IMG/VR virus record: IMGVR_UViG_3300001450_000190
Coordinates: 1-28,283 of that record
DNA from: a virus
Reading direction: 5' to 3' (one strand)
DNA: 28,283 nt
In this document: positions 1 to 16,721 of the stretch, in pieces
Numbering within the stretch: position 1 is the first letter of the stretch
Layout of the letters: each line of letters opens with the position of its first letter
Program-made: the position numbers and the translations under genes
Notes under the pieces: model-generated
Told to the model about the DNA's origin: nothing
Database searches by the model: none
The model's input: the letters and a program-made list of their open reading frames with translations, nothing else

Positions 1-8
1 GTCGGCAC
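1..8. repeat. Left copy of 8-bp terminal direct repeat (candidate cos)
   Basis: GTCGGCAC opens the window and the same 8 bases close it. A GC-rich direct repeat at both physical ends, next to a small terminase gene, is what a sequencing library yields when a short 5' cohesive overhang is filled in at both ends. When the ends are joined, the site reads GGTG-GTCGG-CACC, a small dyad of the type found at cos nicking sites. The identity is seen directly; the cos role is inferred. Confidence 0.5.
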
Positions 9-37
9 CTTCCCCCGTATATAAATAATCTGACACA

Positions 38-64
38 CTATAATTAAAAAACAGTCTATCCCAA
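38..64 (-). promoter_or_regulatory. Candidate late promoter reading toward cos/TerS
   Basis: On the minus strand TTGGGA (64-59) and TATAGT (43-38) are separated by 16 bp, matching sigma70 boxes at 4/6 and 5/6. Transcription would start near position 31 and, on the circularised genome, cross the joined ends into the small basic ORF, TerS and the rest of the late genes. Placement is attractive but the match is only moderate. Confidence 0.4.
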
Positions 65-101
65 AGATTTTAGCTTGTCCTTTTTACTGTCCTTTGATAT
101 G

Positions 102-130
102 GTAATAGTGCTGGGCTTAACCAGCATCAA
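102..130 (-). promoter_or_regulatory. Second candidate leftward promoter with inverted repeat in spacer
   Basis: TTGATG (130-125) and TATTAC (107-102) lie 17 bp apart on the minus strand, each matching the sigma70 box at 4/6. The spacer is almost exactly filled by the inverted repeat TGCTGG-6-CCAGCA (109-126), a classic place for an operator. Alternatively, the inverted repeat is simply an RNA hairpin. Confidence 0.3.
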
Positions 131-206
131 AAAAATACCGTGGGGTTTTTTCCCCAATAAAATAACGGTGCGAAAGGTTTTTTTGATTGGATGAATATGA
201 GAGGCG

Positions 207-236
207 CCGCCATAGCTTTATGTTATGGCGGTTTTT
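207..236 (+). terminator. Intrinsic terminator, plus strand
   Basis: A 10-bp stem CCGCCATAGC/GTTATGGCGG (one G-T pair) with loop TTTAT is followed directly by five T on the plus strand. It overlaps the last codon region of the minus-strand cytosine methylase. There is no T-run on the minus side, so it should not stop methylase transcripts. It would stop plus-strand transcription entering from the left end. Confidence 0.6.
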
Positions 237-1102
237 CCTTTGATGTGTCTATCGATCAATCCGCTATCAACGATCAATCGGCCAATGTATTCCGCGCACT
301 GAGGAACGATACTATTTCCTAGGGATCTAATTCGGTCCACCCGATCGGGAATCCCATCATCTCTTCGACAAAGGCCGGGTTCAGTCGGGAATCCTTCCCA
401 ATAGTTTCCTGCGTGTATCCCTCTTGTATCGCCGCCGACAAACTTTTGTATCCTCCTAGTTTTTTGCATTGATATCTTTCCCATTCCCTCGGTGATGCAT
501 TTTGACGGGCTGCTGTTGCAAGTGGGGTAGGCAGCATCTCGCGCCGCGCCATTCCCTGAAGCGAATATCTTTTCTTTGTGCTGCCTAAGCTTCTGTTGTA
601 TCCGTAGGTGCTCGCTGTTGGGGTAGGCAACTGCAAACCAGCGCCGCCGCAAGTGGGGAGCTCCCATTGACGAAGCTGATACAATTCCCCATTGCATATC
701 GTACCCGATTTTGGCCATTGCTCCGCAAATCTCGGGTAGCCCCAAATTAACGACATTTGGCACGTTCTCCAGGATGATAATTGACGATCGTAAAACGCTA
801 ATGTATTCGAGTAGATTGTACCAAAGACCACTTTTCTTTCCTCCGAGACCCGCCATTTTTCCGGCTGTCGATAGGTCTTGGCAGGGAAACCCCCCGCAAA
901 GAATATCAGGCCGTGGCAATGTGCGCGGGTCTGTCTGTGTGATGTCGTCGAATTTCGGCACATCTGGCCAGTGCTTAGTCAGCACTCTCCGACAAAAAGG
1001 ATCCTTTTCAATTTGCCATACCGTTTTCAAATTGGGTATCGCCCGTTCCAATCCCAGCTCAAAGCCGCCGATCCCTGAAAATGTTGATCCTAATGTTATC
1101 AT
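218..1102 (-). CDS. DNA (cytosine-5-)-methyltransferase
   Basis: This 294-aa enzyme carries the ordered C5-methylase motifs. Motif I (FSGIGGFELGL, residues 8-18) binds AdoMet. Motif IV (GGFPCQDLS) carries catalytic Cys74. Motif VI (ENV, 112-114), motif VIII (RRRW, 152-155) and motif X (LGNSIVPQ, 261-268) follow. About 100 residues between VIII and X form a short target-recognition region, so the enzyme is small for the family but complete. It transfers a methyl group to C5 of cytosine in an unknown sequence, probably shielding phage DNA from host restriction. No restriction partner is visible. The ATG at 1102 has no clear Shine-Dalgarno, and the candidate promoter would start transcription almost at the ATG, so a leaderless message is possible. 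A second long frame is nested inside it. Confidence 0.93.
   Translation of the reverse strand: MITLGSTFSGIGGFELGLERAIPNLKTVWQIEKDPFCRRVLTKHWPDVPKFDDITQTDPRTLPRPDILCGGFPCQDLSTAGKMAGLGGKKSGLWYNLLEYISVLRSSIIILENVPNVVNLGLPEICGAMAKIGYDMQWGIVSASSMGAPHLRRRWFAVAYPNSEHLRIQQKLRQHKEKIFASGNGAARDAAYPTCNSSPSKCITEGMGKISMQKTRRIQKFVGGDTRGIHAGNYWEGFPTEPGLCRRDDGIPDRVDRIRSLGNSIVPQCAEYIGRLIVDSGLIDRHIKGKTAIT
319..963 (-). CDS. Nested out-of-frame ORF, phage LPTPTA/MGFPIGWT-type protein
   Basis: An open frame of 214 codons lies on the same strand as the cytosine methylase but in a different frame. Its translation is not random. It contains SSWRTCQ, a W-PKSGT--NGELYQL segment, two LPTP blocks (LQLPTPTASTYGYN and EMLPTPLATAA) and a C-terminal LNPAFVEEMMGFPIGWTEL. 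From memory these are hallmarks of a widespread phage protein family found beside or overlapping phage C5 methylases, often annotated as hypothetical or methyltransferase-like. No strong Shine-Dalgarno precedes the ATG at 963, and an internal start is possible. It may be a genuine overlapping gene, an overprinted relic, or a by-product of codons for the VAYPNS and GIPDRVDR segments in the methylase frame. I am confident of the similarity, less so of expression. Confidence 0.45.
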   Translation of the reverse strand: MCRNSTTSHRQTRAHCHGLIFFAGGFPAKTYRQPEKWRVSEERKVVFGTIYSNTLAFYDRQLSSWRTCQMSLIWGYPRFAEQWPKSGTICNGELYQLRQWELPTCGGAGLQLPTPTASTYGYNRSLGSTKKRYSLQGMARREMLPTPLATAARQNASPREWERYQCKKLGGYKSLSAAIQEGYTQETIGKDSRLNPAFVEEMMGFPIGWTELDP

Positions 1103-1108
1103 GTTTCT

Positions 1109-1150
1109 GATTTAATCAATTGATATAGCTGTGTCAACCAAAAGTTTACA
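1109..1150 (-). promoter_or_regulatory. Divergent control region with 19-bp palindromic operator
   Basis: TGTCAACC-AAA-AGTTTACA (1132-1150) is an imperfect palindrome with the same layout as the one at 5898-5916 (15 of 19 positions identical). Its left half contains, on the minus strand, a perfect TTGACA -35 box. TAAATC follows 17 bp further on as a weak -10. Binding would block leftward transcription of the cytosine methylase and touch the region just upstream of the plus-strand gene at 1166. Confidence 0.5.
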
Positions 1151-1165
1151 TCAGGAGAATAGGCA

Positions 1166-1549
1166 ATGGCAAAGAAGGACCGTCAGAATATCGTGATAAC
1201 CAGCCGAGCAGGAAACGAAAGAATCGAATCGGCTATACCTAAATTTCAAAGCAGATATGGAATGGATCGGGATCAAGCAACAGCCGTAGCCATCCGGCTA
1301 GAATCCGCCGGCCGGCTTCATGGATCGGATGGTTTGATCTCCAGGAATACAAAGCCCTTCGGCCCTGGCCGCTTCGCCCTTGCAGAAATGGCGATCAGTA
1401 GAATCCCCAAACGAAACAGAACTACAGAAAGGGAAAAGATCGATACGGATGATATGGATACCCTACGGCGGGCCTATGCTGCTCCCAAACGCAAGCTAGC
1501 ACCGAAAAGGATCAAGCCACCGAAGCCAAGAACAAAGCGTAAAAAATAG
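1166..1549 (+). CDS. Basic hypothetical protein with Lys/Pro/Arg tail
   Basis: This 127-aa protein starts at an ATG preceded by AGGAG (about 8 nt spacing). The N-terminal part (about 1-60) has a helical look with the segment RYGMDRDQATAVAIRLESAG. The last 20 or so residues are a run of K, R and P, typical of non-specific nucleic-acid binding. It is transcribed divergently from the cytosine methylase, with a 19-bp palindrome in between, and faces the repeat-rich block at 1566-1735. I do not recognise a family. A DNA-binding role, for example at those repeats, is only an inference from charge and position. Confidence 0.7.
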   Translation: MAKKDRQNIVITSRAGNERIESAIPKFQSRYGMDRDQATAVAIRLESAGRLHGSDGLISRNTKPFGPGRFALAEMAISRIPKRNRTTEREKIDTDDMDTLRRAYAAPKRKLAPKRIKPPKPRTKRKK

Positions 1550-1565
1550 GCCATTCTGTTAGAAA

Positions 1566-1735
1566 CTATCCAACCTATCCAACCTAGCTAACCTATTCCC
1601 TATATAATCTATTTACCCCCTACTCTACCCAAATAATATCTTTGTTGTGGATTAGGTTAGCTAGGTTAACAGTGCTTGTAACCTGCTGATATTTCGACGA
1701 AAAAAAACTGTCAACCTCGCGATAAGGTTAACAGT
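1566..1735. repeat. Iteron-like and inverted repeat block (AGGTTA/TAACCT)
   Basis: Direct 9-mers CTATCCAAC (1566-1574), CTATCCAAC (1575-1583) and CTAGCTAAC (1584-1592) run head to tail. AACCTAGCTAACCTA (1581-1595) recurs as a perfect 15-bp inverted copy at 1653-1667. AGGTTAACAGT occurs at 1663-1673 and 1725-1735, with a near-perfect inverted copy at 1707-1717. The hexamer AGGTTA/TAACCT pervades the block, which separates two convergent genes and contains an AT-rich patch (1600-1645). This could be a replication origin, a cluster of regulator sites or an attachment-like region. The rightmost pair doubles as a terminator. Confidence 0.6.
1700..1735 (-). terminator. Intrinsic terminator of leftward early operon
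   Basis: Read on the minus strand, ACTGTTAACCT (1735-1725) and AGGTTGACAGT (1717-1707) form an 11-bp stem with one mismatch and a 7-nt loop, followed by eight T (1707-1700). It lies 26 bp beyond the stop of the last small gene of the leftward operon. Confidence 0.75.
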
Positions 1736-1760
1736 AGGATGGATAGTCCTTGGTTTGTGA

Positions 1761-1829
1761 CTAGAAGGCGATCAAAAAAAGCGCCGCGATGAAAACACCG
1801 AAGGAAACAAGATCGATAAGACTATCCAT
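1761..1829 (-). CDS. 22-residue hydrophobic membrane peptide
   Basis: The ATG overlaps the end of the ribbon-helix-helix gene (stop at 1822-1824) and is preceded by GAGG nine bases upstream, lying inside that gene. The peptide has an acidic N-terminus (MDSLIDL) and then an uninterrupted apolar stretch (VSFGVFIAALFLIAF) to the TAG stop, enough for one membrane span. It closes the leftward operon just before a strong terminator. Size and composition resemble small membrane peptides such as type I toxins or phage membrane modulators. No sequence family can be assigned, and its reality rests on the overlap, the Shine-Dalgarno and the hydrophobic pattern. Confidence 0.5.
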   Translation of the reverse strand: MDSLIDLVSFGVFIAALFLIAF

Positions 1830-2001
1830 CTTTCTTTTCCTCGATCCATTTTTCAACCAGTCCGATAAGAACCGATGAAAAGGAAATCCCGTCTTCCTTG
1901 CATTCTTGCTTTGCCCTGGCGAGCAATTCGACAGGAAATCGGATTGATATCATCTTCGATTTGTTACCGTGAGATAGCCGGCCGCGTACTCTATTCTTCA
2001 T
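1822..2001 (-). CDS. Ribbon-helix-helix (CopG/Arc-type) regulator
   Basis: This 59-aa protein starts at an ATG overlapping the stop of the upstream gene. Residues 17-56 fit the ribbon-helix-helix pattern: a short strand MISIRFP, then helix VELLARAKQECKEDG, the turn ISFSS, then helix VLIGLVEKWIEEKK. Such proteins bind operators as dimers through the beta ribbon. The N-terminal 16 residues are basic (RVRGRLSHGNKSK). The gene is translationally chained to the 22-residue hydrophobic peptide, a layout reminiscent of antitoxin/regulator pairs. It is a good candidate for binding the palindromes or repeats nearby, but nothing in the sequence shows which. Confidence 0.75.
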   Translation of the reverse strand: MKNRVRGRLSHGNKSKMISIRFPVELLARAKQECKEDGISFSSVLIGLVEKWIEEKKDG

Positions 2002-2224
2002 TACTGCCCCCTTTCTGTATGCGCGGTAGGAGATCAGAAACTCGTTCTTGTACGTATAGACATGTATCCCACGAAGTTATAATTGAATTCGTATCATATC
2101 TTTCTTTTTCGTCTGTCGTTTTTCGCATATATCTTGCCTCTCGTTTCGAATCTTTTATAAATCCAATCGATTTAATGTTAATCCAAATGGATTGTCCCCA
2201 TTGATCTGTTACAGAAATAAACAT
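1991..2224 (-). CDS. Small hypothetical protein, early operon
   Basis: This 77-aa protein's ATG shares one base with the preceding stop (TAATG), so translation is coupled. The N-terminal half (MFISVTDQWGQSIWINIKSIGFI) looks like a short beta-rich unit. It vaguely resembles the strand-G-strand pattern of small FlbD-like or phage beta proteins, too weakly to name. The rest is charged with no clear motif. Its stop overlaps the start of the ribbon-helix-helix gene. Confidence 0.65.
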   Translation of the reverse strand: MFISVTDQWGQSIWINIKSIGFIKDSKREARYMRKTTDEKERYDTNSIITSWDTCLYVQERVSDLLPRIQKGGSNEE

Positions 2225-2388
2225 TACTCGCCCCCTTTCAGGATTGCGCGTAAAATTTTAATGATTCGCTCAGAAAGAACTTGATGAGATCCGCCGTATT
2301 CATCGGAGATTTTCCAGCCGGTATCGAGCATCTGAAGCGCTTCTTTGTTTGTAACGGTTATCAGTTTCCCGTTTATTCTGATTTGCAT
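2224..2388 (-). CDS. Small hypothetical protein, first gene after internal promoter
   Basis: This 54-aa protein begins MQIRINGKLITVTNKEALQ. The ATG at 2388 is chosen over an upstream codon because it follows the leader CATTCAAACAAGG, which also precedes the starts at 5221, 6958 (as CATTCAAACCAGG) and 7272. The sequence suggests a small beta hairpin followed by two helices. It is the first gene downstream of the promoter at 2429-2462 and ends in TAATG overlap with the next gene. Function is unknown. Confidence 0.65.
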   Translation of the reverse strand: MQIRINGKLITVTNKEALQMLDTGWKISDEYGGSHQVLSERIIKILRAILKGGE

Positions 2389-2428
2389 TTTGTATCCTTG
2401 TTTGAATGGTGCTGTATTGCACAATTTT

Positions 2429-2462
2429 AATGTATCAACATTTAAACATATGTCAATACATT
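2429..2462 (-). promoter_or_regulatory. Internal early promoter with AATGTAT/ATACATT inverted repeat
   Basis: On the minus strand TTGACA (2456-2451) is followed after 16 bp by TACATT (2434-2429). Inverted heptamers AATGTAT (2429-2435) and ATACATT (2456-2462) flank and overlap these boxes. The ATAAATGTATTGACAT segment is identical to the two copies near 7 kb, so the three promoters probably share a regulator. Confidence 0.55.
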
Positions 2463-2466
2463 TATT

Positions 2467-2571
2467 TCATTCTATCCAAGAATCTCCCTGATCCATCTTC
2501 ACGAAACCAAGAAAACACAGAATCATCAGGATCAGAAAAGCGACACATGCGCCTGAACAAAGCCAGCTCAT
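2467..2571 (-). CDS. 34-aa single-span membrane protein
   Basis: The ATG at 2571 overlaps the preceding stop (ATGA). The protein starts MSWLCSGACVAFLILM and continues apolar to about residue 25, then ends in a charged tail (KMDQGDSWIE). One transmembrane helix with the tail on one side is the obvious reading. It lies in the early operon, not in the lysis block, so a membrane-modulating or superinfection role is more likely than holin activity, but this is inference. Confidence 0.55.
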   Translation of the reverse strand: MSWLCSGACVAFLILMILCFLGFVKMDQGDSWIE

Positions 2572-2831
2572 TGGGGCGGATAATGGCAAAATTTCCACGC
2601 TTGCAACGCTATTTTTTGGGCTGTTTTTTCTGCTTCGGCTTTGGCTTGCCATCCATTTTTGATTTGATGATAAGCAAAATCACATAACTGTATAAAATTC
2701 ACCCGATCATTAGCTAATTCCATCTGATGAAGATGGCTTATGCACTTTTCCAGGATTTGTTTTTTCATTTTTTCGTTTATCATAAATTCCTTTTCTGATA
2801 TTGCGATCAATCTGGTTTGTTTATTTCTCAT
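2568..2831 (-). CDS. Small helical hypothetical protein downstream of primase-helicase
   Basis: This 87-aa protein's ATG at 2831 overlaps the stop of the primase-helicase gene and is preceded by GGAGGAGGGG, a very strong ribosome-binding site encoded in the end of that gene. The sequence is mostly amphipathic helix (EKMKKQILEKCISHLHQMELANDRV, then QAKAEAEKTAQKIALQAW). No family was recognised. Tight coupling suggests it works with replication or is needed at a similar dose. Confidence 0.65.
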   Translation of the reverse strand: MRNKQTRLIAISEKEFMINEKMKKQILEKCISHLHQMELANDRVNFIQLCDFAYHQIKNGWQAKAEAEKTAQKIALQAWKFCHYPPQ

Positions 2832-5221
2832 TTCCCCTCCTCCGGTGCTGGTGGCGTCCAAACGTAGGAGCTCCTTTTCGTGTCCTTGTTGTACTTTCGG
2901 CGCTTGGTCCAGCCGGCGCCGGAAAGAAGCCCGGATAGCCGCATAAGCACCGCTCTGTTCTGCTGGGGCGATTCGATCTTGAGAACTTGAATCAAAAGAT
3001 CAGTCAAGGTAAATTCTTTCATATCAATCGTTTCACCTGTCATTGTAAATTTTGGTGTTGCCATATATTCAATAATTGCTTCCATCCATGAATCGATCGC
3101 CTTGTAGGGCTCCTGGTATCGGGTCAATTCCTTCTCGAAATCAATCCCGTCTTTCTCGGTCAATCGGCCGGGATCACCCCGCCGAAACTCATATACTGCA
3201 TCGGCCCAAATCAGATCGATATTTTCATCCGTCAATTTGTCCAGATCGATATTTTCCAACATAATCGGATAATATCGCCGGTCTCCAGTAGCATCCCGGA
3301 AAATCTCTAATTCGTTTGATGATCCGCAAAAAACAACCTGTCTTTTCTGGTCGATCTCATACCGCGCATAGGCGGGCCGATATGTATCGGATTGACTGGA
3401 AAGAAAGGATTTCGTGACCGTGCTATCTCTGTTCCTCGTGGAACTCAGCTCGGCGAATTCATAGATCCATTTTCCGCGGAGCTTCGAATATGAATCCCGC
3501 CCGCCCCGAATATCGATAGCCGAATCCGAAAACCAGTCGTCATTTTTCGCCAGTCTTCGAAAAAGGGTGCTCTTGCCGATGCCCTGGGCGCCGAGCAAAA
3601 TCAAAGAACAATCAACTTTACAACCTGGATCAAAGATTCGACGTACCGCGGAAACGAGCCACGCCCGCCCCATTTCGGAGATTAGAAGTTTGAAGCGTTT
3701 TTCCTCCTCTTCGTTTTCCTTTTCTCCCCGGCCCTCCGGCTTTTGTCTTTTCATAATTGTGCAGAACTCGGTTAGGAAAGTAGATGCGTACGGCTTAGCC
3801 TTATCCCTTATTCCGTCGGTCTCCAATTTCTTTAAATATTCGCGTACTGGGTGATAGATATTATCCTCCCTGCGCGCGATGAATTCGATCATCTGCCCGA
3901 CGTCCTCTTTTCGGAACTGCACGCCATAGGCCCAAGATATCTCTAGCCGCAATTCGGTAATATGGTGGTCGGCTATTCTGCTGCCCTGAAATTCCAGCTG
4001 ACCCGTAAATTCGTTGAATCGGATCAGATCGCCGATCGACACGTTCAGAGCATCGATCACCATATGACAATTAGCAAGATTCGCAATCGGTTTTCCTCTT
4101 TTAAATCGCTCCGAATAGTCATCGGGATAGCGCTCCATTTTAACAACTGGGTAGTCATCGCGATGGCCAAGATTAACACTTTTTAAAATGTTGCTGATCT
4201 CTACTTTTGCCGGCTTTTCCTCTAATGAAGCATATGCACGTTGCACCGTTTTTATAATGTAGCTCGCCGGTTTTGCTTTCTTCTCGGTGCCATCTTCGGC
4301 AACATAGTCGTAATCGCGGCCCTCATTTCTGATCTTCGCGCATAATGCATTAAATGCATCGCCGATTTCAACACGTAGCCAACTCAATTCTTTAACGAAA
4401 ACCCAGTCGTACGCGGACGCGCTCTGATCGCCTTTTCTCTTGCCCTGGTTGGCAAAATATCCGGCTAATTCGTCATTTGTATCAATCAATCGGCGCACGT
4501 TCGCCGATAGAATCGGCTTCGGTCGAAAAGAGGATTTTGGTAGTTTCGTCTTCTTCTTCTTGCTCTTCGGCACATCGAAGATAGCGCCGGCGCCGAGCAT
4601 TTCATCCAAGCCATCGAGAGAATGTATATTTCCAGCCATCGCCGCAAAAACCACGCGCACGGGATCCTTTTTCAGATGCCAGCTCAAAGGAAGACGAAGA
4701 ATTCGCGCCCCATCCCATGCATGCGTATCGCCGTCAACCCTTGCAAGCAATCTTTTATTGAGATCCTCGATCCGGTCCAAATCGATTTCCCGATCAAGAA
4801 AATAGTAGATGTGAAGACCGCCGCCGCTTTGAATAATCGCAGAGGGTTCGATCGGCAGCGCATTGACTAGCGCCCAAGTTTGATCCCGGCCCCCCGTGTC
4901 CTTGTCATCGATATCCGACCAAATAACGCGCCCGGGCGAGCAATTCGAGCGTTTCCCGTTCTCGCGGGATTTCCTGGGAAGAACACCGAAGAAAACGGCA
5001 TGATTCGCATTTTTGCATTTCTCGATCAAATTGGGAAGATGAGAAATGAGATCCGCCGCCCCATCAAAAAAGCCGCCTAGATTGTATTTTCGCCGGGCCT
5101 TTGCTCGGTCGGGAATCGGCCGTATCTCGATCAGCGATTCCGCCGGGAACATAAATTCGAGGAACTCACGGAGGAGCCTGTTTTGCTCCTGCCCATCAAC
5201 CGAGTTAAGTTTTCTATACAT
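2828..5221 (-). CDS. Primase-helicase fusion (RepB/AEP-like primase plus VapE-like ATPase)
   Basis: The protein is 797 aa from the ATG at 5221. The N-terminal third looks like an archaeo-eukaryotic-type primase of the RepB/Prim-Pol kind. It has an acidic pair in VIWSDIDDKD (about residues 99-108), then IIQSGGGLHIYYF (about 129-141) with the conserved S-G-G-x-H pattern. The C-terminal part is a VapE-type ATPase, with Walker A GAQGIGKST (about 544-552), acidic YEFAELS (about 587-593) and the sensor-like DATGDRRYYP (about 643-652). It probably lays primers and unwinds DNA at the phage origin, replacing separate primase and helicase genes. The start at 5221 is preferred over 5263 because it follows AAAGG in the shared CATTCAAACAAAGG leader. 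Confidence 0.88.
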   Translation of the reverse strand: MYRKLNSVDGQEQNRLLREFLEFMFPAESLIEIRPIPDRAKARRKYNLGGFFDGAADLISHLPNLIEKCKNANHAVFFGVLPRKSRENGKRSNCSPGRVIWSDIDDKDTGGRDQTWALVNALPIEPSAIIQSGGGLHIYYFLDREIDLDRIEDLNKRLLARVDGDTHAWDGARILRLPLSWHLKKDPVRVVFAAMAGNIHSLDGLDEMLGAGAIFDVPKSKKKKTKLPKSSFRPKPILSANVRRLIDTNDELAGYFANQGKRKGDQSASAYDWVFVKELSWLRVEIGDAFNALCAKIRNEGRDYDYVAEDGTEKKAKPASYIIKTVQRAYASLEEKPAKVEISNILKSVNLGHRDDYPVVKMERYPDDYSERFKRGKPIANLANCHMVIDALNVSIGDLIRFNEFTGQLEFQGSRIADHHITELRLEISWAYGVQFRKEDVGQMIEFIARREDNIYHPVREYLKKLETDGIRDKAKPYASTFLTEFCTIMKRQKPEGRGEKENEEEEKRFKLLISEMGRAWLVSAVRRIFDPGCKVDCSLILLGAQGIGKSTLFRRLAKNDDWFSDSAIDIRGGRDSYSKLRGKWIYEFAELSSTRNRDSTVTKSFLSSQSDTYRPAYARYEIDQKRQVVFCGSSNELEIFRDATGDRRYYPIMLENIDLDKLTDENIDLIWADAVYEFRRGDPGRLTEKDGIDFEKELTRYQEPYKAIDSWMEAIIEYMATPKFTMTGETIDMKEFTLTDLLIQVLKIESPQQNRAVLMRLSGLLSGAGWTKRRKYNKDTKRSSYVWTPPAPEEGK

Positions 5222-5247
5222 TGGTCTTTGTCCTTTGTTTGAATGTT

Positions 5248-5273
5248 GGGGATAGGCGGGCATGCCTATCCCC
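5248..5273 (-). promoter_or_regulatory. 10-bp hairpin in the leader of the primase-helicase gene
   Basis: GGGGATAGGC (5248-5257) and GCCTATCCCC (5264-5273) form a perfect 10-bp stem with a 6-nt loop, between the regulator stop and the chosen start at 5221. There is no T-run after it on either strand, so it is not a standard terminator. It could be an RNA processing or stability element, or an operator. Confidence 0.6.
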
Positions 5274-5278
5274 TTTCT

Positions 5279-5518
5279 CTATTCTGATAGCTCGAATTTG
5301 ACGGTATTCGCGATTTCTCCGCGTACCTGATCGATAGGGCAACCCCTAAGCAAAGCAAGCACGGCCGCGATTCTGCGAAGACTGCGCATTGATGGGAATG
5401 CGCGACGGGTTAGCCACTTGTGAAGAGAATGACGGCTAATCATGAATAATTCCGCCGCCTTTCCCCTGGATAGCTCATTTTTCAGTAATTGACTATCAAG
5501 CCATTGATCGAATTTCAT
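5279..5518 (-). CDS. HTH-type small regulator (Cro/repressor-like)
   Basis: In this 79-aa protein, residues about 14-45 (LSRGKAAELFMISRHSLHKWLTRRAFPSM) fit a helix-turn-helix of the Xre/Cro kind: a helix with KAAELF, a turn at SR, and a recognition helix HSLHKWL. The ATG overlaps the upstream stop (ATGA). It lies early in the leftward operon, right behind the divergent control region at 5875-5916, which is the usual place for an autoregulator. It is therefore a leading candidate for binding the TGTCAAC palindromes. Confidence 0.75.
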   Translation of the reverse strand: MKFDQWLDSQLLKNELSRGKAAELFMISRHSLHKWLTRRAFPSMRSLRRIAAVLALLRGCPIDQVRGEIANTVKFELSE

Positions 5519-5847
5519 AGCCGATCCCCTAATATCGTAATTGTGTATTCCAGTAGTTTTCGCCGCCGTTCCTCTATCCGGCCCCGTCGGTCGGCTAGCA
5601 TATCGCGCCGCAATTCTTGATTCAAGCTATCAATCTCATCAAGATAATGCCTCGATTTTCTTACCCAGTCCTGGGTTTTTGGAGCTGCTGGGATATGCTC
5701 CCATTTGCTCATTCTCTTTTGAAGATGCTCGGCATCGATCAAAGGAAGAGGGCTATCATTTACGCGGATCCATCCATATCGGGGATGTAGCATTTCCACC
5801 CGCCATAGATCTTCTTTTCTCGCTAGTCGTATCATTCTCGTTTCCAT
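5515..5847 (-). CDS. Hypothetical protein, first gene of leftward early operon
   Basis: In this 110-aa protein the N-terminal part (METRMIRLARKEDLWRVEML) is beta-like. The second half, from about residue 65, is a long charged helix with coiled-coil character (EIDSLNQELRRDMLADRRGR). The promoter at 5875-5903 lies immediately upstream. It is translationally coupled to the HTH gene by a 4-bp overlap. No family was recognised. Confidence 0.7.
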   Translation of the reverse strand: METRMIRLARKEDLWRVEMLHPRYGWIRVNDSPLPLIDAEHLQKRMSKWEHIPAAPKTQDWVRKSRHYLDEIDSLNQELRRDMLADRRGRIEERRRKLLEYTITILGDRL

Positions 5848-5874
5848 TTTTTACACCTCGCCACCACAAAACAG

Positions 5875-5916
5875 ATATAATGTTGTAGTTGGTATTTTGT
5901 CAACTTTTAGTTTACA
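5875..5916 (-). promoter_or_regulatory. Main leftward early promoter and overlapping palindromic operator
   Basis: On the minus strand a perfect TTGACA (5903-5898) is spaced 17 bp from TTATAT (5880-5875), the best promoter in the window. TGTCAACT-TTT-AGTTTACA (5898-5916) is a 19-bp palindrome, 7/8 matched in its arms, that covers the -35 box. It lies just ahead of the plus-strand annealase ribosome-binding site. It has the same arm length and spacing as the copy at 1132-1150. Confidence 0.75.
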
Positions 5917-5926
5917 GGAAGGAAAA

Positions 5927-6535
5927 ATGAAACAAATAACGCACGCGATCCACGCGGTAATGGTCGACTCCCAGCACATCCCGAAATCGGGATTTAACCG
6001 ACATATGAAATATAAGTTTTCAACGGTCGAAGATGTCATAGCCGGCACGAAAGAAGCCCGATCAAAGCACGGGATAGCCATTATTCCAGATCATCAGGAA
6101 ATCCTAAATCGCGATGCATTCGGGAAACAATACCTGATTGATATCCGGGCGCACTACATTGTCCGGCACACCGTGTCTGGCGAGGAATTCAAGTTTTCGA
6201 TCCTTTCATCCGGTATCGACAGCCAAGACAAGGCATTTCCCAAAGCGCTCACAATGGCTTTAAAATACGCGTATATTCAGCTTTTTTCCCTTCCACGGGG
6301 CGATGATCCCGATAAATTCTATGAGGAGGAAAAGAAGAAGTCCGTACCCAACGCACGAAAAAACAAGCGCTTTATCGAATTCTGCAAATCCTACGGAGGA
6401 ATTGAAACCGTGCGGAATTGGATGATGGATAACAACTATCCCGATGTGGATACCCTCCCAGCTCATCGGCTTATCGGGATGATTGAAGCTGTTGAAAAAG
6501 GGGCGATCATGATAGATATCCCGGCGAATAGATGA
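5927..6535 (+). CDS. erf: ERF-family single-strand annealing protein
   Basis: This 202-aa protein has the N-terminal pattern of the ERF superfamily: IHAVMVDSQHIPKSGFN, then MKYKFSTVEDVI, then ARSKHGIAIIPDHQE, with a beta-rich core to about residue 125 and a lysine-rich linker (EEEKKKS). ERF proteins pair complementary single strands and drive phage recombination and genome circularisation. The ATG at 5927 is chosen because GGAAGG precedes it directly; a TTG 10 codons upstream lies inside the operator. The C-terminal 60 residues (KNKRFIEFCKSYGG onward) are a separate helical domain. It is co-transcribed with a zinc-finger-like gene and runs opposite to the other replication genes. Confidence 0.85.
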   Translation: MKQITHAIHAVMVDSQHIPKSGFNRHMKYKFSTVEDVIAGTKEARSKHGIAIIPDHQEILNRDAFGKQYLIDIRAHYIVRHTVSGEEFKFSILSSGIDSQDKAFPKALTMALKYAYIQLFSLPRGDDPDKFYEEEKKKSVPNARKNKRFIEFCKSYGGIETVRNWMMDNNYPDVDTLPAHRLIGMIEAVEKGAIMIDIPANR

Positions 6536-6723
6536 AAGAGACCTGCGACAAATGCGGGGGCCGGATTCGTTGGATTGAATGCGACGGAAAAAGGATCCCG
6601 CTTGACGTATACACGATAGAGGAAAGATTCGTTCAGCTAAAGGGAACTTGGGGCCGAGGAATTGCGGGGGTCTCGCATTTCAGGACTTGCCAGGGAAAGA
6701 AGCGATTCCGAATTGGAAATTAG
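6532..6723 (+). CDS. Small zinc-ribbon-like protein
   Basis: This 63-aa protein overlaps the ERF stop by 4 bp (ATGA). CDKCGGRIRWI-ECDGKRIPLD followed by H and C (SHFRTC) gives a C-x2-C...H-x3-C set suited to one zinc ion. The fold pattern, knuckle then G-K-R-x-P-x-D, recurs in small phage proteins of unknown role that sit beside recombination genes. It may assist the annealase or bind nucleic acid. Confidence 0.7.
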   Translation: MKETCDKCGGRIRWIECDGKRIPLDVYTIEERFVQLKGTWGRGIAGVSHFRTCQGKKRFRIGN

Positions 6724-6725
6724 GC

Positions 6726-6750
6726 AAAAAAAAACCCCCGTGGGGGCTAA
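6726..6750 (-). terminator. Intrinsic terminator of accessory unit A
   Basis: On the minus strand, AGCCCCCACGGGGG folds into a short GC stem and is followed by nine T (6734-6726). It lies just after the stop of the 6958-6758 gene. It matches the terminator at 7043-7066 in all but one or two bases. It also sits at the end of the convergent ERF operon but has no T-run on that side. Confidence 0.75.
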
Positions 6751-6757
6751 TGTTTAA

Positions 6758-6958
6758 TTACTTTTTCGTTGCTTTAAATCTTTGCTTTGTTCTTTTTACT
6801 AATTGATCAATCTCATTATCTAAAATTTGATGCATAATTATCTTGTTTTCATTTTTTACAGCTTTAGCAAAATTTAAACCTGTTTGATCTCCTTTTTCGG
6901 CGCGGGCTATTAAACTGTCAATGATTAATTCTATTTGCTTTTGTGGTGTCCAATTCAT
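6758..6958 (-). CDS. 66-aa hypothetical protein, accessory unit A
   Basis: The gene starts MNWTPQKQIELIIDSLIARA and is mostly helical with a basic tail (KRTKQRFKATKK). It has AGGAAAA upstream of the ATG, its own promoter-leader (6971-7037) and its own terminator. It is markedly AT-rich compared with the structural genes. It has exactly the same length as the protein of unit B, although the two sequences are not obviously related. Function is unknown; the self-contained layout resembles a phage moron. Confidence 0.7.
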   Translation of the reverse strand: MNWTPQKQIELIIDSLIARAEKGDQTGLNFAKAVKNENKIIMHQILDNEIDQLVKRTKQRFKATKK

Positions 6959-6970
6959 TTTGTTTTCCTG

Positions 6971-7037
6971 GTTTGAATGTATATACTATTAACCTCCTCC
7001 CGGATGATGTCAATACATTTATTTAATTATCTTCATT
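6971..7037 (-). promoter_or_regulatory. Promoter-leader repeat, copy A (67 bp)
   Basis: This 67-bp stretch matches 7287-7353 at 65 positions; the two differences are adjacent. On the minus strand it holds TTGACA (7013-7008), a purine-rich GGGAGGAGG segment and TAGTAT/TATAC sequences as possible -10. Spacing to these is 17-19 bp, so the -10 is uncertain. AATGTAT and ATACATT heptamers (6976-6982 and 7013-7019) form an inverted repeat around the promoter. Confidence 0.7.
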
Positions 7038-7042
7038 CAGGC

Positions 7043-7066
7043 AAAAAAAAAGCCCCCGTGGGGGCT
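7043..7066 (-). terminator. Intrinsic terminator of accessory unit B
   Basis: On the minus strand AGCCCC-CACG-GGGGCT makes a 6-bp stem with a 4-nt loop, followed by a T-run ending at 7043. It lies five bases past the stop of the 7272-7072 gene, and directly before the copy A promoter. Confidence 0.78.
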
Positions 7067-7071
7067 GGCGA

Positions 7072-7272
7072 TTAGGCTTTTATCATCGCTTGTTTTTGCC
7101 TTTTTCTGGTTGTAATATCGAGTTTAATATTGTTACTCAGTTTTGTGAGTAAGAAGATAAGATCGTTTAATTCAAACTTGTAAACATAGTTTATAATCAA
7201 GTCATCATTTTGATTAATGTAGTGTGAGTATCCGGCCTTTTTTACTGCTTTTTTGATTTCGTTTAAAGTCAT
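7072..7272 (-). CDS. 66-aa hypothetical protein, accessory unit B
   Basis: The gene starts MTLNEIKKAVKKAGYSHYIN at 7272, after AAGGGAAAAC. A longer frame from 7329 would run through the promoter and is rejected. The pattern is a helix, then beta segments (DDLIINYVYKF), then a helix with a basic tail (RKRQKQAMIKA). It is AT-rich like unit A. Promoter, leader and terminator are shared with unit A. No family was recognised. Confidence 0.7.
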   Translation of the reverse strand: MTLNEIKKAVKKAGYSHYINQNDDLIINYVYKFELNDLIFLLTKLSNNIKLDITTRKRQKQAMIKA

Positions 7273-7286
7273 TTTTGTTTTCCCTT

Positions 7287-7353
7287 GTTTGAATGTATAT
7301 ACTATTAACCTCCTCCCGGATGATGTCAATACATTTATCCAATTATCTTCATT
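7287..7353 (-). promoter_or_regulatory. Promoter-leader repeat, copy B (67 bp)
   Basis: This is a near-identical partner of the 6971-7037 element (65/67). It directly follows, and overlaps by a few bases, the end of the small zinc-ribbon gene, with no terminator between. Unit B could therefore also be reached by late read-through transcription. Confidence 0.7.
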
Positions 7354-7468
7354 TTAACAAAATAGGGTATAGCGTCGCCCCGCATTTTTCACATGTTGGA
7401 TCTTCAATATCTTTACTTAAATCAATATATAAATTGCAATTCATGCATACATGAATGTTTTCAGACAT
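7349..7468 (-). CDS. 39-aa zinc-ribbon microprotein
   Basis: The ATG at 7468 lies one base after the stop of the preceding gene. The protein carries two C-x2-C knuckles, VCMNC (residues 7-11) and TCEKCGA (25-31), separated by an acidic segment. This is enough for a single zinc ribbon. It ends the chain RusA, 95-aa gene, zinc ribbon. Such minimal ribbons are usually nucleic-acid or protein adaptors. The role here is unknown. Confidence 0.65.
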   Translation of the reverse strand: MSENIHVCMNCNLYIDLSKDIEDPTCEKCGATLYPILLK

Positions 7469-7469
7469 T

Positions 7470-7757
7470 TTAATTCCAGCGCAAATTATACAAATATTTC
7501 AGCGTCGCCATGATTACGGGGAAAACATGCACGTCTACGGCGAAATCAAAGGATAGCACACCTTTCTCTATCGTTATTTTTGCGACGGGCTGACCAAGCG
7601 ATACGACCAGAAAAGCCCGGTGGTGATAAAGCTGGGTTGAATATTCCTTCATTTTGTCGAAATGACCGCGGATTCTGCTCAGCAAATCCGGGGAATCCAT
7701 ATCTAGGGTGATCCCGTGGTTAATGATTCCCTTGATAATCGTTAATTCGTTGTCCAT
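7470..7757 (-). CDS. Hypothetical protein downstream of RusA
   Basis: This 95-aa protein overlaps the RusA gene by 16 bp. Helices (MDNELTIIKGIINHG, LLSRIRGHFDKMKEY) precede a beta-rich half (AFLVVSLGQPVAKITIEKGVLSFDFAVDV). No catalytic motif was recognised. Coupling to RusA suggests a late DNA-metabolism role, without direct evidence. Confidence 0.7.
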   Translation of the reverse strand: MDNELTIIKGIINHGITLDMDSPDLLSRIRGHFDKMKEYSTQLYHHRAFLVVSLGQPVAKITIEKGVLSFDFAVDVHVFPVIMATLKYLYNLRWN

Positions 7758-8200
7758 CGCGCCGCTAAAACCTCCGTAATGCTGATTTTCGCTTCAATTT
7801 TTTCCTCTATCCCAGCGAACCAGGCCTCGGCCGTGATCGAATAAACTAGATTGTCGTTTTTTATAATCCCGGCCGCTTGAAGCGCATCTAGCACGCTCTT
7901 GATCTGATTATCAATATCCTCTCTACTCCTGCATTTCGGTAGCCGATGATCTTTTGTAGTCTTTCGGATCTTTGATTTCGGCTTTGTGCAAAGGAATAGG
8001 ATTTCGACCTGTAGGGCATTATCTAGGGGTTTTTTCCCCTGCCATTGGTGCCTAAGGATGAATTCCGCCATATGCTGAAATTTCTTGTATTTCGGAGGGT
8101 AGTATGCTCGTTTGTTGGATATCCTGGGGCGCGGATGGCTTGGAATATCGCCGGGAATTGTGATCGCCGGATGCATCAAAATATCTTTGGATTTACTCAC
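7742..8200 (-). CDS. rusA: RusA-family Holliday-junction resolvase
   Basis: This 152-aa protein has the RusA layout: HPRPRIS then YYPPKYKKF (about 22-41), and the metal-binding core REDIDNQIKSVLDALQAAGIIKNDNLV with Asp95, Asp97, Asp105 and Asp116. The family cuts four-way junctions symmetrically; in phages it removes branches before or during packaging. The start is GTG at 8200 with AAAGG six bases upstream. It overlaps the holin-like gene by 8 bp. An ATG eight codons in is the alternative. It sits after the lysis genes, away from the replication genes, as part of the late transcript. Confidence 0.88.
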   Translation of the reverse strand: MSKSKDILMHPAITIPGDIPSHPRPRISNKRAYYPPKYKKFQHMAEFILRHQWQGKKPLDNALQVEILFLCTKPKSKIRKTTKDHRLPKCRSREDIDNQIKSVLDALQAAGIIKNDNLVYSITAEAWFAGIEEKIEAKISITEVLAARWTTN

Positions 8201-8588
8201 CGCTTGCCTTTAATCTGTTTACGTCGCTCTCGATCAGATCAATCCTTCCAACCAAAGCCCGGAAATCTAGCGCCAAAGTCGTAATTTTTTCCGTCATCGC
8301 CTGCACTTTCGCAGTCATCGCCTGAACTACTTCGATGTGTTTTATCGTGGTAGCGTCGCGCGATGTTTCTATTTTTAGGATGACTTCGTCATATCGAATC
8401 CTTAAAGCATCCTCTCTTTTCTGGCTTTTATCCTCAAGGGTGCTGATCTGCTCCATCCATTTATTTGTGAGATCATCTAGTCTTTTTTGCTGCCCTTTAC
8501 TTTGCCAAATTAGATAACCGGCGAATGCGACTAATGGGGGCGCATTGAAAAGCATATCGGTTAAAGCGGTTGTTGTTTGCGGGTCCAT
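8193..8588 (-). CDS. Holin-like membrane protein with coiled coil
   Basis: In this 131-aa protein the ATG at 8588 follows GGAGG encoded in the end of the previous gene. Residues about 12-30 (FNAPPLVAFAGYLIWQ) form one membrane span. The rest is a long charged coiled coil containing the near repeat VQAMTAKVQAMTEKI. The topology, one N-terminal span plus a charged tail next to an amidase, resembles BhlA/UviB-like holins or lysis accessory proteins. No sequence signature proves it. Confidence 0.6.
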   Translation of the reverse strand: MDPQTTTALTDMLFNAPPLVAFAGYLIWQSKGQQKRLDDLTNKWMEQISTLEDKSQKREDALRIRYDEVILKIETSRDATTIKHIEVVQAMTAKVQAMTEKITTLALDFRALVGRIDLIESDVNRLKASGE

Positions 8589-8589
8589 T

Positions 8590-8982
8590 TCATATCCTCC
8601 GGTCGAATAATTCGACACAATTCCTAAAGATATCTTTATCATTTTTTGAAGCGATATGGCAAAATCTCCACAAGGCCTGTTTGTTCAACATATTTCCTAT
8701 TTTCTCGCAATCCGTTTGCGACGTTTTCGCATCCAAGCCCCTTTGCTGCATCCTGCAAAACAGCTCGCGGCACAACAAAGAACCATCGGGATGTTTCTCT
8801 ATAAATTCGGCCGTGCAAACAGGCTTGACTAGATCCAAATCGGTTAATTGCTGCTGCAGTTTTACCTGTTCAAGCGCCGTACTCGGGCCTTGGTTCGCCT
8901 TTTTTTTGCTAATTGCAAGCATGATCCCGGCGCCGCCGCCGCCGCCCGCAATTAGTCCGATGATGAGAGCCGCCCACATCAT
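8590..8982 (-). CDS. TM-anchored cysteine-rich protein in lysis block
   Basis: In this 130-aa protein the ATG at 8982 comes right after the amidase stop. An N-terminal span, MMWAALIIGLIAGGGGGAGI and a little beyond, is glycine-rich and followed by KKK, so the C-terminal part is probably outside the cytoplasm if the span acts as a signal anchor. That part has six cysteines (near PVC, LLC, LFC, TDC, RFC, RNC), suggesting three disulfides. Position between amidase and holin-like gene suggests a spanin-like or lysis-regulating role. No family was recognised, and it lacks a lipobox. Confidence 0.65.
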   Translation of the reverse strand: MMWAALIIGLIAGGGGGAGIMLAISKKKANQGPSTALEQVKLQQQLTDLDLVKPVCTAEFIEKHPDGSLLCRELFCRMQQRGLDAKTSQTDCEKIGNMLNKQALWRFCHIASKNDKDIFRNCVELFDRRI

Positions 8983-8983
8983 T

Positions 8984-9589
8984 CTATTTACTGCCGATGA
9001 AATCGTTAATTCCGTTCGCAATTGCTTCTCCTATCGCCCTCATACCTTTGATCGAAAATAGAGGCTTGTGTGCTCGTGAATCGATGAATGCCGGCTCTGC
9101 ACATATCCCGATGGCCCTAACTCCCTTTATGGTATTAAAAGCGTTTCTAGTCCAGTTTTCCGGGGTCGCCGATATGCTTTTCACCTTGTTTTGGAGCTCC
9201 GGACATGCAATCCTTAGCCGCTCGTTTATCGCATCGGCTAATTCCTTGCCTCTGGTGCTCCGGAAATCGTAAAACATGGACCCGTATCCGATCCCCGATC
9301 CAACTCCCGCATTCAGATGCGCCGCTATGTATATCCCCAATTCACCTTCTTTCTGATAGTGATTCGCGCGCCGATGCCTTTCGAAATAGGCGCCGTCTGA
9401 AATAGGAATTACATCATGGCCCAATTCCCTCAGCCTGATCTCGCAAGCCAGCAAATATCGACTGGTCCAAATTGCCTCAGAATCGTGTACGTCCTTGTCC
9501 CCATCGTTGTCCAGATCCGCCGCCGCGCCCAAGGCCGAGCGCCGGTTGTTCTTCCCTGAATGCTGACGGTCCAAAAATATGACAGTCAT
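8984..9589 (-). CDS. N-acetylmuramoyl-L-alanine amidase (Amidase_3-like endolysin)
   Basis: In this 201-aa protein, His10 (LDRQHSG), Glu38 (HDSEA), His91 (IAAHLNAG) and Glu165 (AEPAFID) fit the zinc ligands and catalytic Glu of Amidase_3 enzymes, which cut the bond between muramic acid and the stem peptide. No signal peptide is seen, so release needs the neighbouring holin-like protein. An unusual DLDNDGDKDVHD loop (residues 25-36) sits just before Glu38 and resembles a calcium-binding DxDxDG loop. The start abuts the stop of the tail-hub gene, putting lysis under the late transcript. Confidence 0.88.
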   Translation of the reverse strand: MTVIFLDRQHSGKNNRRSALGAAADLDNDGDKDVHDSEAIWTSRYLLACEIRLRELGHDVIPISDGAYFERHRRANHYQKEGELGIYIAAHLNAGVGSGIGYGSMFYDFRSTRGKELADAINERLRIACPELQNKVKSISATPENWTRNAFNTIKGVRAIGICAEPAFIDSRAHKPLFSIKGMRAIGEAIANGINDFIGSK

Positions 9590-14300: not shown

Positions 14301-14736
14301 TTTTAACTACAATTCCATTGCTGCCCACCGCTTCGGTGCTTGAATAGGCTAGCAGGAGATCCCCATTCAGCAGCGCAAGACATGACGGATCAGAATACGT
14401 ATTGAGAGGAACCGAGCTCTTCATTTTAAGGAACTGGAAATCGGTGATAGCATTAAAGGAATTATCGCCGTAATAATCCGTTTCCGTCGCCCTCTTGAAA
14501 ATGAATCCCGCCTTGCTTCTTCCTGGAGTTCCGGCTTTGTGCGTCTTGATATCGATAGCGCTTGTTTGCTCGCCGATAGTGTTCAATACAAGCTTTTCTC
14601 CTCCCGATGGAATCGCCGCGCCCGCTTTTAATTCCGCCGTCGTATAACTGGCTTCTGCTGTCCAAATATCCGCATCAGTTAATTCAAGCGGAAGAATAAA
14701 CCCTCTTAAATATGCCGGTGATCGATCTATACCCAT
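11368..14736 (-). CDS. Large tail protein with Asp-box beta-propeller and lectin-like region
   Basis: This 1122-aa protein has two clean Asp boxes, SNDNGVNW (207-214) and STDQGETW (394-401). A degenerate one, SVNEGMTF (267-274), lies between them. With periodic beta segments from about 100 to 460, this predicts a sialidase-like or BNR propeller. Residues about 490-700 look like a concanavalin-type jelly roll. The C-terminal part resembles distal-tail proteins that join tube to tip. It could bind or cleave a surface glycan during adsorption. Catalytic sialidase residues (the Arg triad, FRIP) were not identified, so enzyme activity is not claimed. The start is TAATG-coupled to the tape measure. 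Confidence 0.72.
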   Translation of the reverse strand: MGIDRSPAYLRGFILPLELTDADIWTAEASYTTAELKAGAAIPSGGEKLVLNTIGEQTSAIDIKTHKAGTPGRSKAGFIFKRATETDYYGDNSFNAITDFQFLKMKSSVPLNTYSDPSCLALLNGDLLLAYSSTEAVGSNGIVVKRMAADGSVFSSGSVAFNATTHLSTVTASNPAMCQLSDGSVILVFWANYVISTNLSNLYVYRSNDNGVNWDLVSTGALDQSLDRSVYSLGRISIGHHNGQILLIGSLTKLAGLKNNIIIQAASVNEGMTFTTIGTTADNIYCYSPSMVVCDDGFILSYITSINDAASTDGHGKSFLFPNAFFPFASRGALELDISSGWDVGYINTTSKTFETGALTTWIDEENNIFVLFRNIPTKAQSYGGNGGLWMKISTDQGETWQYAGLLDPGWIPPFVQAMNDDTEYLRNFSACSAKGRTWVFCQPETTAGTIDNSLLLFGLRGYSSITLPDRFQDADIYQQFGYNHTYIPFVVPDILPDWTDTISGVPVVELTTGGLKITTSTTSSIKYTYSMLSPIAAHTTTGTIARFVARPATGGTVSGNEIAADLYISDGAHSYRVIFRFSPTQIQLRDELGAANLATVTPNPASILTDTGVEILVALGNGRVSAWWRGNDHIDAKGWNLLASNAAVADGGAGANNYLSIGNQAATASGSAISYWGEVCIAYKNGNGGQFFPDLFNGFSTPSDLSAKLYPSEGNALQVAEGMFISTQDGPAQLSDVYSVSPASSYGIENLFHAQSPSPQNGWRGKERSGAGAVPAEFIPIRLDANGENIAFQSDMIGIHLGNINFKDFQLEGYDAGSASWQVIKLINPGILIKSTRHGSRLVADPTGAAPHPYFFHDELTGATAQIPGAPPVYREIRTNSEGSWNGTTTPRPATIVLNDTQASDPTASLDVAIFPKNVTVIINLNGAKYSALGIRISSQNTRTGDFRIGHLSIGPFHAIAPQYSHGREITFSANTETFDQPDGIIRTRNLGKGRRNFSINWSDPVDTSPLMPMGGSPSPDWFKGSYNGAAQAVASFGGIAFDILGYIRHMRGPDRPVVYLPSVKFADNSGEEVRVYNRELQHALVMLDDSASIDNAIGEELVSVRGEIFRIGSINMVEVI

Positions 14737-16721
14737 TATCTTTTCCTCCCGGAACTAGCCGGCACGAGATTTCTGATCCGGGTATTCTCCCGCATGCTCG
14801 CGGCTAGAAATCGGTCAAAGTGCTTAAACGAATTCACCACGACAACCTGAGGTTTCTGCCCTATTTGCTGCACACCACGGGCGCCGCCTATCTCGCGCAC
14901 CGTCTGGCGATCAAGAACCGCCTCGCCTTTTAGCAGCTGCGCATTGACCACATCGGCGCCGTCAACAAATCCCCCCGTATGGAATTTAGGCGGGGGCTGG
15001 CTCATTATCGCCGCCGTCTGGACCGTGGCTAGCCCCGCCATTGCTATCCCGGCCGGGATCCCAGCAATCGGTCCAAACAAAGCGTAAGCTTTCATCGTCG
15101 CGACAGCCGCATTAATCCAAACTTCCGCAACCCCCGCTGTTTGCTGCAATTTATGAAGGGATCTCGCCCGTTCCTCTGTTAATTTCCCGCCGTTCTCCAT
15201 TGTCGTCTGTACTGCAGTTGCAAAGCTCGACATGTAGCCGGTAAAGGCCTTTCCGTAGCTGTTTATGTTGTTGATTCTTCTCTGTAGCGCTTCCTGTTCT
15301 CGTTTCTTTTGCTTTTCATCGTTTTCTTTTCGAACTTTTTCTAATTGATCTTCCATATCAATCATTAGCTGGTTCGATTCCTGAATTGTATTGATCTTTT
15401 CTTTGCTGATTTCCTGTATTTCTCGTAGGCGCTTTATTTGTCCTGCATATTCTTTTTTGATGCGCTGCTCCTTATCGAGCGTCTGATCCTCACTTTTTGA
15501 TTTAATGGCAAGAACTTCATTACGCAGTTTAATCAGATCAATCAGATCTTTTTTTTGCTTGCTCGCGGATTTTGATCTTTCAATGTCTCTTTCTTTCTCT
15601 TTATCCGTTTCCGTTTTCGTTGATTTTTGTGAGCTCGTTAATTTTGTCAAACTCATCATTTTTTCATATTGGCCTGTAGCTCTTGAAAGAATGTTACCCA
15701 TATTCAAAGTGGATTCATTCAAAGCCTTATCTAGGGGTTCCATCATTGTTTTCATTTTAGAATGGCCCTGCTTTCTGATTTCAGTATCGAAAGCCGCCCA
15801 TGCCGCCGGTATATCCTTTAAGCTACGAACCATTAAAACGTCGTTTAATTTTTTTCCTAAACCTGAAAAATCAATAGATAACATTGTGCTAATTGCTGCT
15901 TGCACTGATCCAAAGGCTGATCTTATGAAATCAGCTATGAAAGACAGAACATCCGTAGCAATTGATTTAACAAAGACAAGCGCCCCTACTAATTTTTCCA
16001 AAGCCGCCGCCGGGGAATTGCGGCCGGTCAAAGCGCGGGCCATATCCTGCGCCGCCCGTTCCGTAACCATGCCTAAATCAGCCATTGCGCGCTGCCATCG
16101 GGCGGCTTCCTCCCGGGCTTTCGGCCCCACGTCAACCCCGAATTCTCTTATTTTTTCATTGAACAATTCCATGTTATCAATTGCGCCTGATTGCGTTAAA
16201 GCAGCTCCGGCACCTCTACCGAACATTTCCATTACAATTATATTTCTTTCCGTGCCTTCGCCCATGTTTTTAAGCGCTTCGATTGTTTCGTTAAAAACAT
16301 CGTTCGAATCCCTCATTGATCCGTCTGTTGTTTTTTTAACTTTGATCCCTAGATCCTCGAATGCTTCGGCCTGCCGGCCCGTTCCTTCGTAGGCCATCGC
16401 CATACTTTGCTGAAATCTGATCAGCCCTCCCTCAATGGAATTCAGCGATTTTCCTGAGCCGATCGCGGCTAGCTTCAGAGCCTGCAATGTTTCGACGGCT
16501 ATTCCTGTTTTTGTTGACGCGTCAACAAGCTCATTGACCATATCCGCTATTGATTGATTCAATTTGGCGATTCCCAAAGCCATCGCCGAGACCGCCGCGC
16601 CCGCGACAGCTACCCCCTTCGCGAATTTCGCAAATCCAGATTTAGAATCGGATAGGGCTTTGTTCAGCTTGTCCGCATTCCCCTTGATCATGATCATTAC
16701 TGTACGATTTACATCTGCCAT
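14736..16721 (-). CDS. Tape measure protein
   Basis: This 661-aa protein has an apolar N-terminal segment (FAKGVAVAGAAVSAMALGIA, about 33-52). A long helical, coiled-coil-rich middle with many K/E/Q residues follows. An apolar stretch (YALFGPIAGIPAGIAMAGLA) comes near the C-terminus, then the typical tape-measure ending FHTGGFVDGADVVNAQLLKGEAVL. It sets tail length and is threaded inside the tube. With the usual 0.15 nm per residue, the tail would be about 100 nm. This fits a siphovirus with a rather short tail. Confidence 0.9.
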   Translation of the reverse strand: MADVNRTVMIMIKGNADKLNKALSDSKSGFAKFAKGVAVAGAAVSAMALGIAKLNQSIADMVNELVDASTKTGIAVETLQALKLAAIGSGKSLNSIEGGLIRFQQSMAMAYEGTGRQAEAFEDLGIKVKKTTDGSMRDSNDVFNETIEALKNMGEGTERNIIVMEMFGRGAGAALTQSGAIDNMELFNEKIREFGVDVGPKAREEAARWQRAMADLGMVTERAAQDMARALTGRNSPAAALEKLVGALVFVKSIATDVLSFIADFIRSAFGSVQAAISTMLSIDFSGLGKKLNDVLMVRSLKDIPAAWAAFDTEIRKQGHSKMKTMMEPLDKALNESTLNMGNILSRATGQYEKMMSLTKLTSSQKSTKTETDKEKERDIERSKSASKQKKDLIDLIKLRNEVLAIKSKSEDQTLDKEQRIKKEYAGQIKRLREIQEISKEKINTIQESNQLMIDMEDQLEKVRKENDEKQKKREQEALQRRINNINSYGKAFTGYMSSFATAVQTTMENGGKLTEERARSLHKLQQTAGVAEVWINAAVATMKAYALFGPIAGIPAGIAMAGLATVQTAAIMSQPPPKFHTGGFVDGADVVNAQLLKGEAVLDRQTVREIGGARGVQQIGQKPQVVVVNSFKHFDRFLAASMRENTRIRNLVPASSGRKR

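Follow-up and report, generated by a model that had tools for sequence, protein, structure and literature searches.

Two tandem small-gene units with near-identical control ends in a tailed phage, and a candidate Arc-like repressor for both

Why would a phage place two small genes with dissimilar products one behind the other, each between almost the same promoter and the same terminator? The locus that raises this question lies in a virus record of 28,283 bp, the whole of which is referred to here as the window. The window encodes a terminase, an Erf-like annealing protein, a RusA-like resolvase, a VapE-domain helicase/primase, an endolysin and DNA methyltransferases, and the two units lie in an AT-rich island of what is read as a tailed phage. 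An earlier note, made from the letters alone, had proposed a swap-in site with fixed control ends and exchangeable small genes. Fixed ends around different small genes are indeed visible, and the swap-in reading of them is plausible.

All features of the island lie on the minus strand, which corrects the earlier note, and in the 5′ to 3′ direction of that strand the order is CxxC gene, promoter B, gene B, terminator, promoter A, gene A, terminator (Table 1). A convergent gene on the plus strand (6532-6723) ends next to the last terminator, on its downstream side. The 67-bp promoter-leader described previously was recovered with 65 of 67 bases identical between 6971-7037 (A) and 7287-7353 (B), or 64 of 67 after a one-base shift. 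Its inner 39 bases are the same in both blocks and absent elsewhere in the window (0 expected from 100 shuffles), and the similarity continues as far as the start codon, interrupted by two small gaps. Positions 1-9000 contain 17 promoter-like sites, a total equal to the shuffle mean of 16.8; B, A and a third promoter, C, score best with 10/12 each, and AATAGT, the candidate -10 of A and B, matches poorly. The leader of each unit has an AGG ribosome site. The terminators with T-runs claimed for both units are likewise present, agree over about 23 nt (96%) and lie 318 bp apart, compared with 316 bp for the promoter copies. Deletion by recombination between the direct repeats, also raised in the earlier note, is a reasonable expectation. 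A riboregulator in the leader is not favoured because Rfam returned no match for an RNA element and the leader of A folds no better than shuffles (z 0.02).

Table 1 Features of the island, of operon C and of neighbouring genes, in window coordinates.
Feature	Position	Strand	Details
Gene with CxxC...CxxC	7349..7468	minus	39 aa, zinc-knuckle-like (by eye); TGA stop inside 5′ edge of block B
Promoter-leader block of unit B	7287..7353	minus	TTGACA -35 at 7324-7329; candidate -10 AATAGT at 7301-7306
Operator-like site of B, upstream	7323..7334	minus	ATGT-N4-ACAT
Operator-like site of B, second	7293..7304	minus	imperfect (TAGT-ATAT-ACAT); centre 30 bp from first
Gene B	7072..7272	minus	66 aa, basic (pI 9.7), orphan; ATG start
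Predicted intrinsic terminator of unit B	7051..7066	minus	hairpin -11.8 kcal/mol, z -1.66, then T-run
Promoter-leader block of unit A	6971..7037	minus	65 of 67 bases as in the block of B
Operator-like site of A, upstream	7007..7018	minus	ATGT-N4-ACAT
Operator-like site of A, second	6977..6988	minus	imperfect (TAGT-ATAT-ACAT); centre 30 bp from first
Gene A	6758..6958	minus	66 aa, basic (pI 9.8), predicted three-helix, orphan; ATG start
Predicted intrinsic terminator of unit A	6733..6748	minus	hairpin -9.6 kcal/mol, z -1.66, then T-run
Stop-to-start block C	2386..2469	minus	diverged third promoter (2429-2469) and leader
Operator-like site 1 of C	2450..2461	minus	perfect ATGT-N4-ACAT
Operator-like site 2 of C	2430..2441	minus	perfect (ATGT-TGAT-ACAT); centre 20 bp from site 1; overlaps candidate -10
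C1, first gene of operon C	2224..2388	minus	54 aa, orphan
C2	1991..2224	minus	77 aa, orphan
C3, last gene of operon C	1822..2001	minus	59 aa, Arc/ParG-like ribbon-helix-helix; candidate repressor for all three promoters
Terminator-like hairpin downstream of operon C	1707..1735	minus	strong; -15.3 kcal/mol, z -6.4
ERF gene	5927-6535	plus	
RusA gene	7742-8200		

The two genes have, as stated before, 66 codons each and ATG starts, and when 6724-7354 was shuffled 3000 times with dinucleotides preserved, two ATG-started reading frames of at least 66 codons arose on the minus strand in about 0.03% of cases. A longer, TTG-started frame of 85 aa for gene B was rejected since its start falls within the promoter, which makes ATG 7272 the likely start. 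The AT-richness noted earlier is pronounced: the GC contents of A and B (0.289 and 0.294, against 0.47 for the window) are the lowest of the 40 listed genes, and the CxxC gene ranks next. Relatives of A or B were detected neither in viral_contigs, where single-protein scans reach close relatives only, nor in PHROGs, PADLOC, NCBIfam or PDB sequences, nor by tblastn against phages down to E 1. Pfam gave no family, with one chance-level match for B (E 0.21). Comparison of predicted folds gave nothing convincing for A (best Z 3.7; none of 122 Foldseek viral matches at E≤0.001); for B, whose model is weak, none of eight viral matches reached that threshold and there was no PDB chain to compare. An action of these small basic proteins on the host or against its defences is a guess.

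The third, diverged promoter copy announced by the earlier note does exist (2429-2469), although it shares with A and B only blocks, namely 16 identical bases (ATAAATGTATTGACAT), ATACATT and part of the leader. Its spacer differs widely from the A/B spacer, and no A/B-like terminator directly precedes it. Common to all three promoters is AATGTAT...ATACATT, with gaps of 30, 30 and 20 bases, in which we recognized paired operator-like sites overlooked by the earlier note, as was the Arc-like regulator described below. Perfect ATGT-N4-ACAT occurs four times in the window, always inside the three blocks (0.2 expected from shuffles), and paired sites are found only there (mean 0 in 300 shuffles). 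This enrichment is partly circular, because the motif was derived from these very blocks, two of which (A and B) are copies of one another; the second perfect site of C is its sole independent support. The ten-base difference between the centre spacings (30, 30 and 20 bp) corresponds to about one helical turn. In each block the upstream site and the -35 overlap. The second site overlaps the -10 in C and sits near the predicted start in A and B, and such positions fit repression.

Promoter C precedes a three-gene operon whose last gene encodes a weakly matched member of the ribbon-helix-helix sequence family. C3 scored 22.7 bits against the Pfam family PF09274 ParG (cut-off 21.4) and matched Arc-like repressors in PHROG (best 9e-5; PHROG 582, 6506 and 228), and its matches among PDB sequences were only 1p94 ParG (E 0.0078) and 1b28 Arc (E 0.52), both weak. 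For repressors of the Arc/ParG kind, autoregulation of their own operon is the usual pattern. The operator-like sites, together with the presence of this putative regulator in operon C, are what ties A, B and C to one another. An alternative regulator candidate is a 79-aa protein with weak HTH/RstR-like repressor similarity at 5279-5518.

Other repeats were observed around operon C and the ERF gene. The non-coding segment 1563-1748 contains AACCTA repeats spaced 9 bases and a 19-base inverted repeat (95%) with arms at 1581-1599 and 1649-1667; it lies near the ribbon-helix-helix gene and may serve in replication or partition. A second operator-like motif, TGTCAAC-N5-GTTTACA, itself read from the window, occurs at 1132-1150 and 5898-5916 (two found, none in 300 shuffles). 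Each copy lies a short way upstream of the ribosome site of a plus-strand gene, the first of the gene at 1166 and the second of ERF at 5927. The hairpin at 1709-1733 has TGTCAAC/GTTTACA half-sites with a wider gap. These sites may mark a second regulon.

The element was not encountered elsewhere in the collections searched. A 27-base pattern of it had no exact match in viral_contigs, and the 67 bp gave a single match in phages (E 0.5), within the portal gene of a Helicobacter phage, which was taken as chance. No match was returned for 781 bp of the region in plasmids or for 1301 bp in phages. The paired-site pattern was present at ten viral loci, none with the A/B spacer; among the window proteins that were compared with those loci there was one weak match (E 0.009), and the loci were taken as unrelated. 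One viral contig of 53% GC (L016:525-560) has a AATGTATTGACAT...TTGACATACATT pair in a similar operator-like arrangement.

The searches made with the terminase suggest a phage nearly alone among the collections covered. In viral_contigs the terminase had one close relative (L003, 77%) and five further loci at 34-35%; no match was found in the phage collection, and no relative in genomes. The close relative (L003/L004, 16,840 bp) matches structural genes only, without the A/B region, which was accordingly seen in no other genome, and the L003 record also lacks the element. No early-region protein was matched by any of the loci L003 to L009 (28 proteins compared). Queries with ERF and with VapE, made for relatives by neighbouring gene, returned none; VapE matched 628 phage records by tblastn, all below 60% identity and none covering 80% of the protein, and these were regarded as general relatives only. 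Within the minus-strand structural block, a gene on the plus strand (21995-23362) encodes a protein of 455 aa that carries a Peptidase_S74 chaperone domain; L003 has other reading frames at the equivalent position, likewise on the strand opposite to the structural genes. A 661-aa tail-tape-like protein (14736-16721) has, at residues 475-547, a sub-threshold match to the Thoeris inhibitor Tad4 (19.8 against 25 bits) that is probably a chance coiled-coil match.

Our preferred reading, in which we place about even confidence, is that the locus holds two moron-like single-gene transcription units in tandem, a recently copied frame enclosing a different gene in each, and that C3 co-represses both with operon C. 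At the sequence level, each unit consists of a sigma70-type promoter match, an AGG leader, a 66-codon frame and an intrinsic-terminator match. The frame would have been copied recently, by tandem duplication or by recombination at the repeat, and would now hold different small genes. C3, produced from promoter C, would bind the paired ATGT-N4-ACAT-like sites round the -35 and the start or -10, and would thereby hold operon C, unit A and unit B under common repression until the early stage of infection or until derepression. The small basic proteins might act on the host. The block edges bear on how the copying could have proceeded. In blocks B and C one edge is marked by the stop codon of the preceding gene (TGA at 7349-7351 and 2467-2469) and the other by a start codon. 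Block A carries the same left-edge bases, AATGAAG, placed after the terminator of B, as expected if the frame of A was copied from the position of B. This is suggestive of a B to A direction, not proof of it.

The same edges can be read otherwise, namely as a mobile promoter in which the stop-to-start block was copied before pre-existing genes without any gene exchange. The stop and start codons at the limits of B and C and the AATGAAG edge kept by A agree with such a process; the terminators, however, were duplicated too, at nearly the same spacing as the promoters, which copying of a promoter only would leave unexplained, and we regard this account as quite improbable. More serious, if still rather unlikely, is that A and B are paralogues: the whole unit would have been duplicated in tandem, the genes would have diverged very fast, and gene conversion or selection would have kept the ends. 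The earlier note had called the two proteins unrelated, a claim that holds as far as BLAST (no similarity, E 0.38 over 9 residues) and the gapped protein score (shuffle level, p 0.40) are concerned. Compared in register, the proteins had an ungapped BLOSUM score of -14 (-43 ± 17 in shuffles, p 0.056) and the genes a nucleotide identity of 38.8% (34.4 ± 3.0% in shuffles, p 0.089), and the gapped nucleotide comparison gave p 0.11. This borderline similarity appears to lean towards a relation, and it is the reason, with the equal lengths, why an ancient duplication is retained as a minority possibility. Single-sequence AlphaFold2 models have three helices in both proteins (confident for A, with pLDDT 90 and pTM 0.69; 76 and 0.38 for B), helices 2 and 3 being similarly in register in the two, but the B model is weak and three-helix topologies are common. 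The promoter spacer is identical in A and B although promoter C shows that it can vary; this argues for a recent common origin of the frames and speaks against the paralogue account. For a fresh frame around very different genes, we infer that exchange or capture is simpler than drift.

That A and B, being adjacent, equal in size and served by the same promoter, form a toxin-antitoxin or similar functional pair requiring equal promoters seems very remote. Most type II toxin-antitoxin pairs are co-transcribed, whereas A and B have separate predicted promoters and terminators, and neither matched defence or toxin-antitoxin families.

Returning to the co-repressed tandem units, a further step, which we consider doubtful, would be a repressor-addressed plug-in frame, in which a stop-to-start operator-promoter block and a terminator capture new small genes and bring them directly under the Arc-like repressor of the phage. 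If true, gene gain would arrive with ready-made silencing, which would explain how orphan genes can be added without immediate cost. The locus, known from one genome without informative relatives, offers a compact example for comparing the control ends of accessory phage genes with the genes between them, and a candidate repressor and candidate sites can be named for it.

Similar arrangements are already known. Morons occur in lambdoid and other temperate phages; PMC1524935 defines a moron as an ORF that has its own promoter, its own terminator and a deviating GC content. A and B resemble them in that each is a single ORF with a predicted promoter of its own (TTGACA, 10/12), its own predicted terminator (hairpins and T-runs at 6733-6748 and 7051-7066) and a deviating GC. 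An operator-like site in common with a repressor operon lies outside that moron definition. Here, moreover, two such units follow one another and their control ends are nearly alike. Promoter early stem-loop (PeSL) cassettes of T4-type phages were reportedly described by Arbiol (2010) and Comeau (2014). In these, small orphan genes are separated by a terminator stem-loop with a strong promoter of early type directly behind it. The account in PMC4503421 presents PeSLs as promoter and stem-loop cassettes of high copy density, linked to gene shuffling. The B-A junction (6971-7066) is likewise a predicted composite of stem-loop and promoter; the present phage, however, is not T4-type and has one composite unit instead of many, its third promoter being diverged and without such a terminator directly before it. 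The present locus is best grouped with the morons, as a tandem pair for which a shared repressor is proposed.
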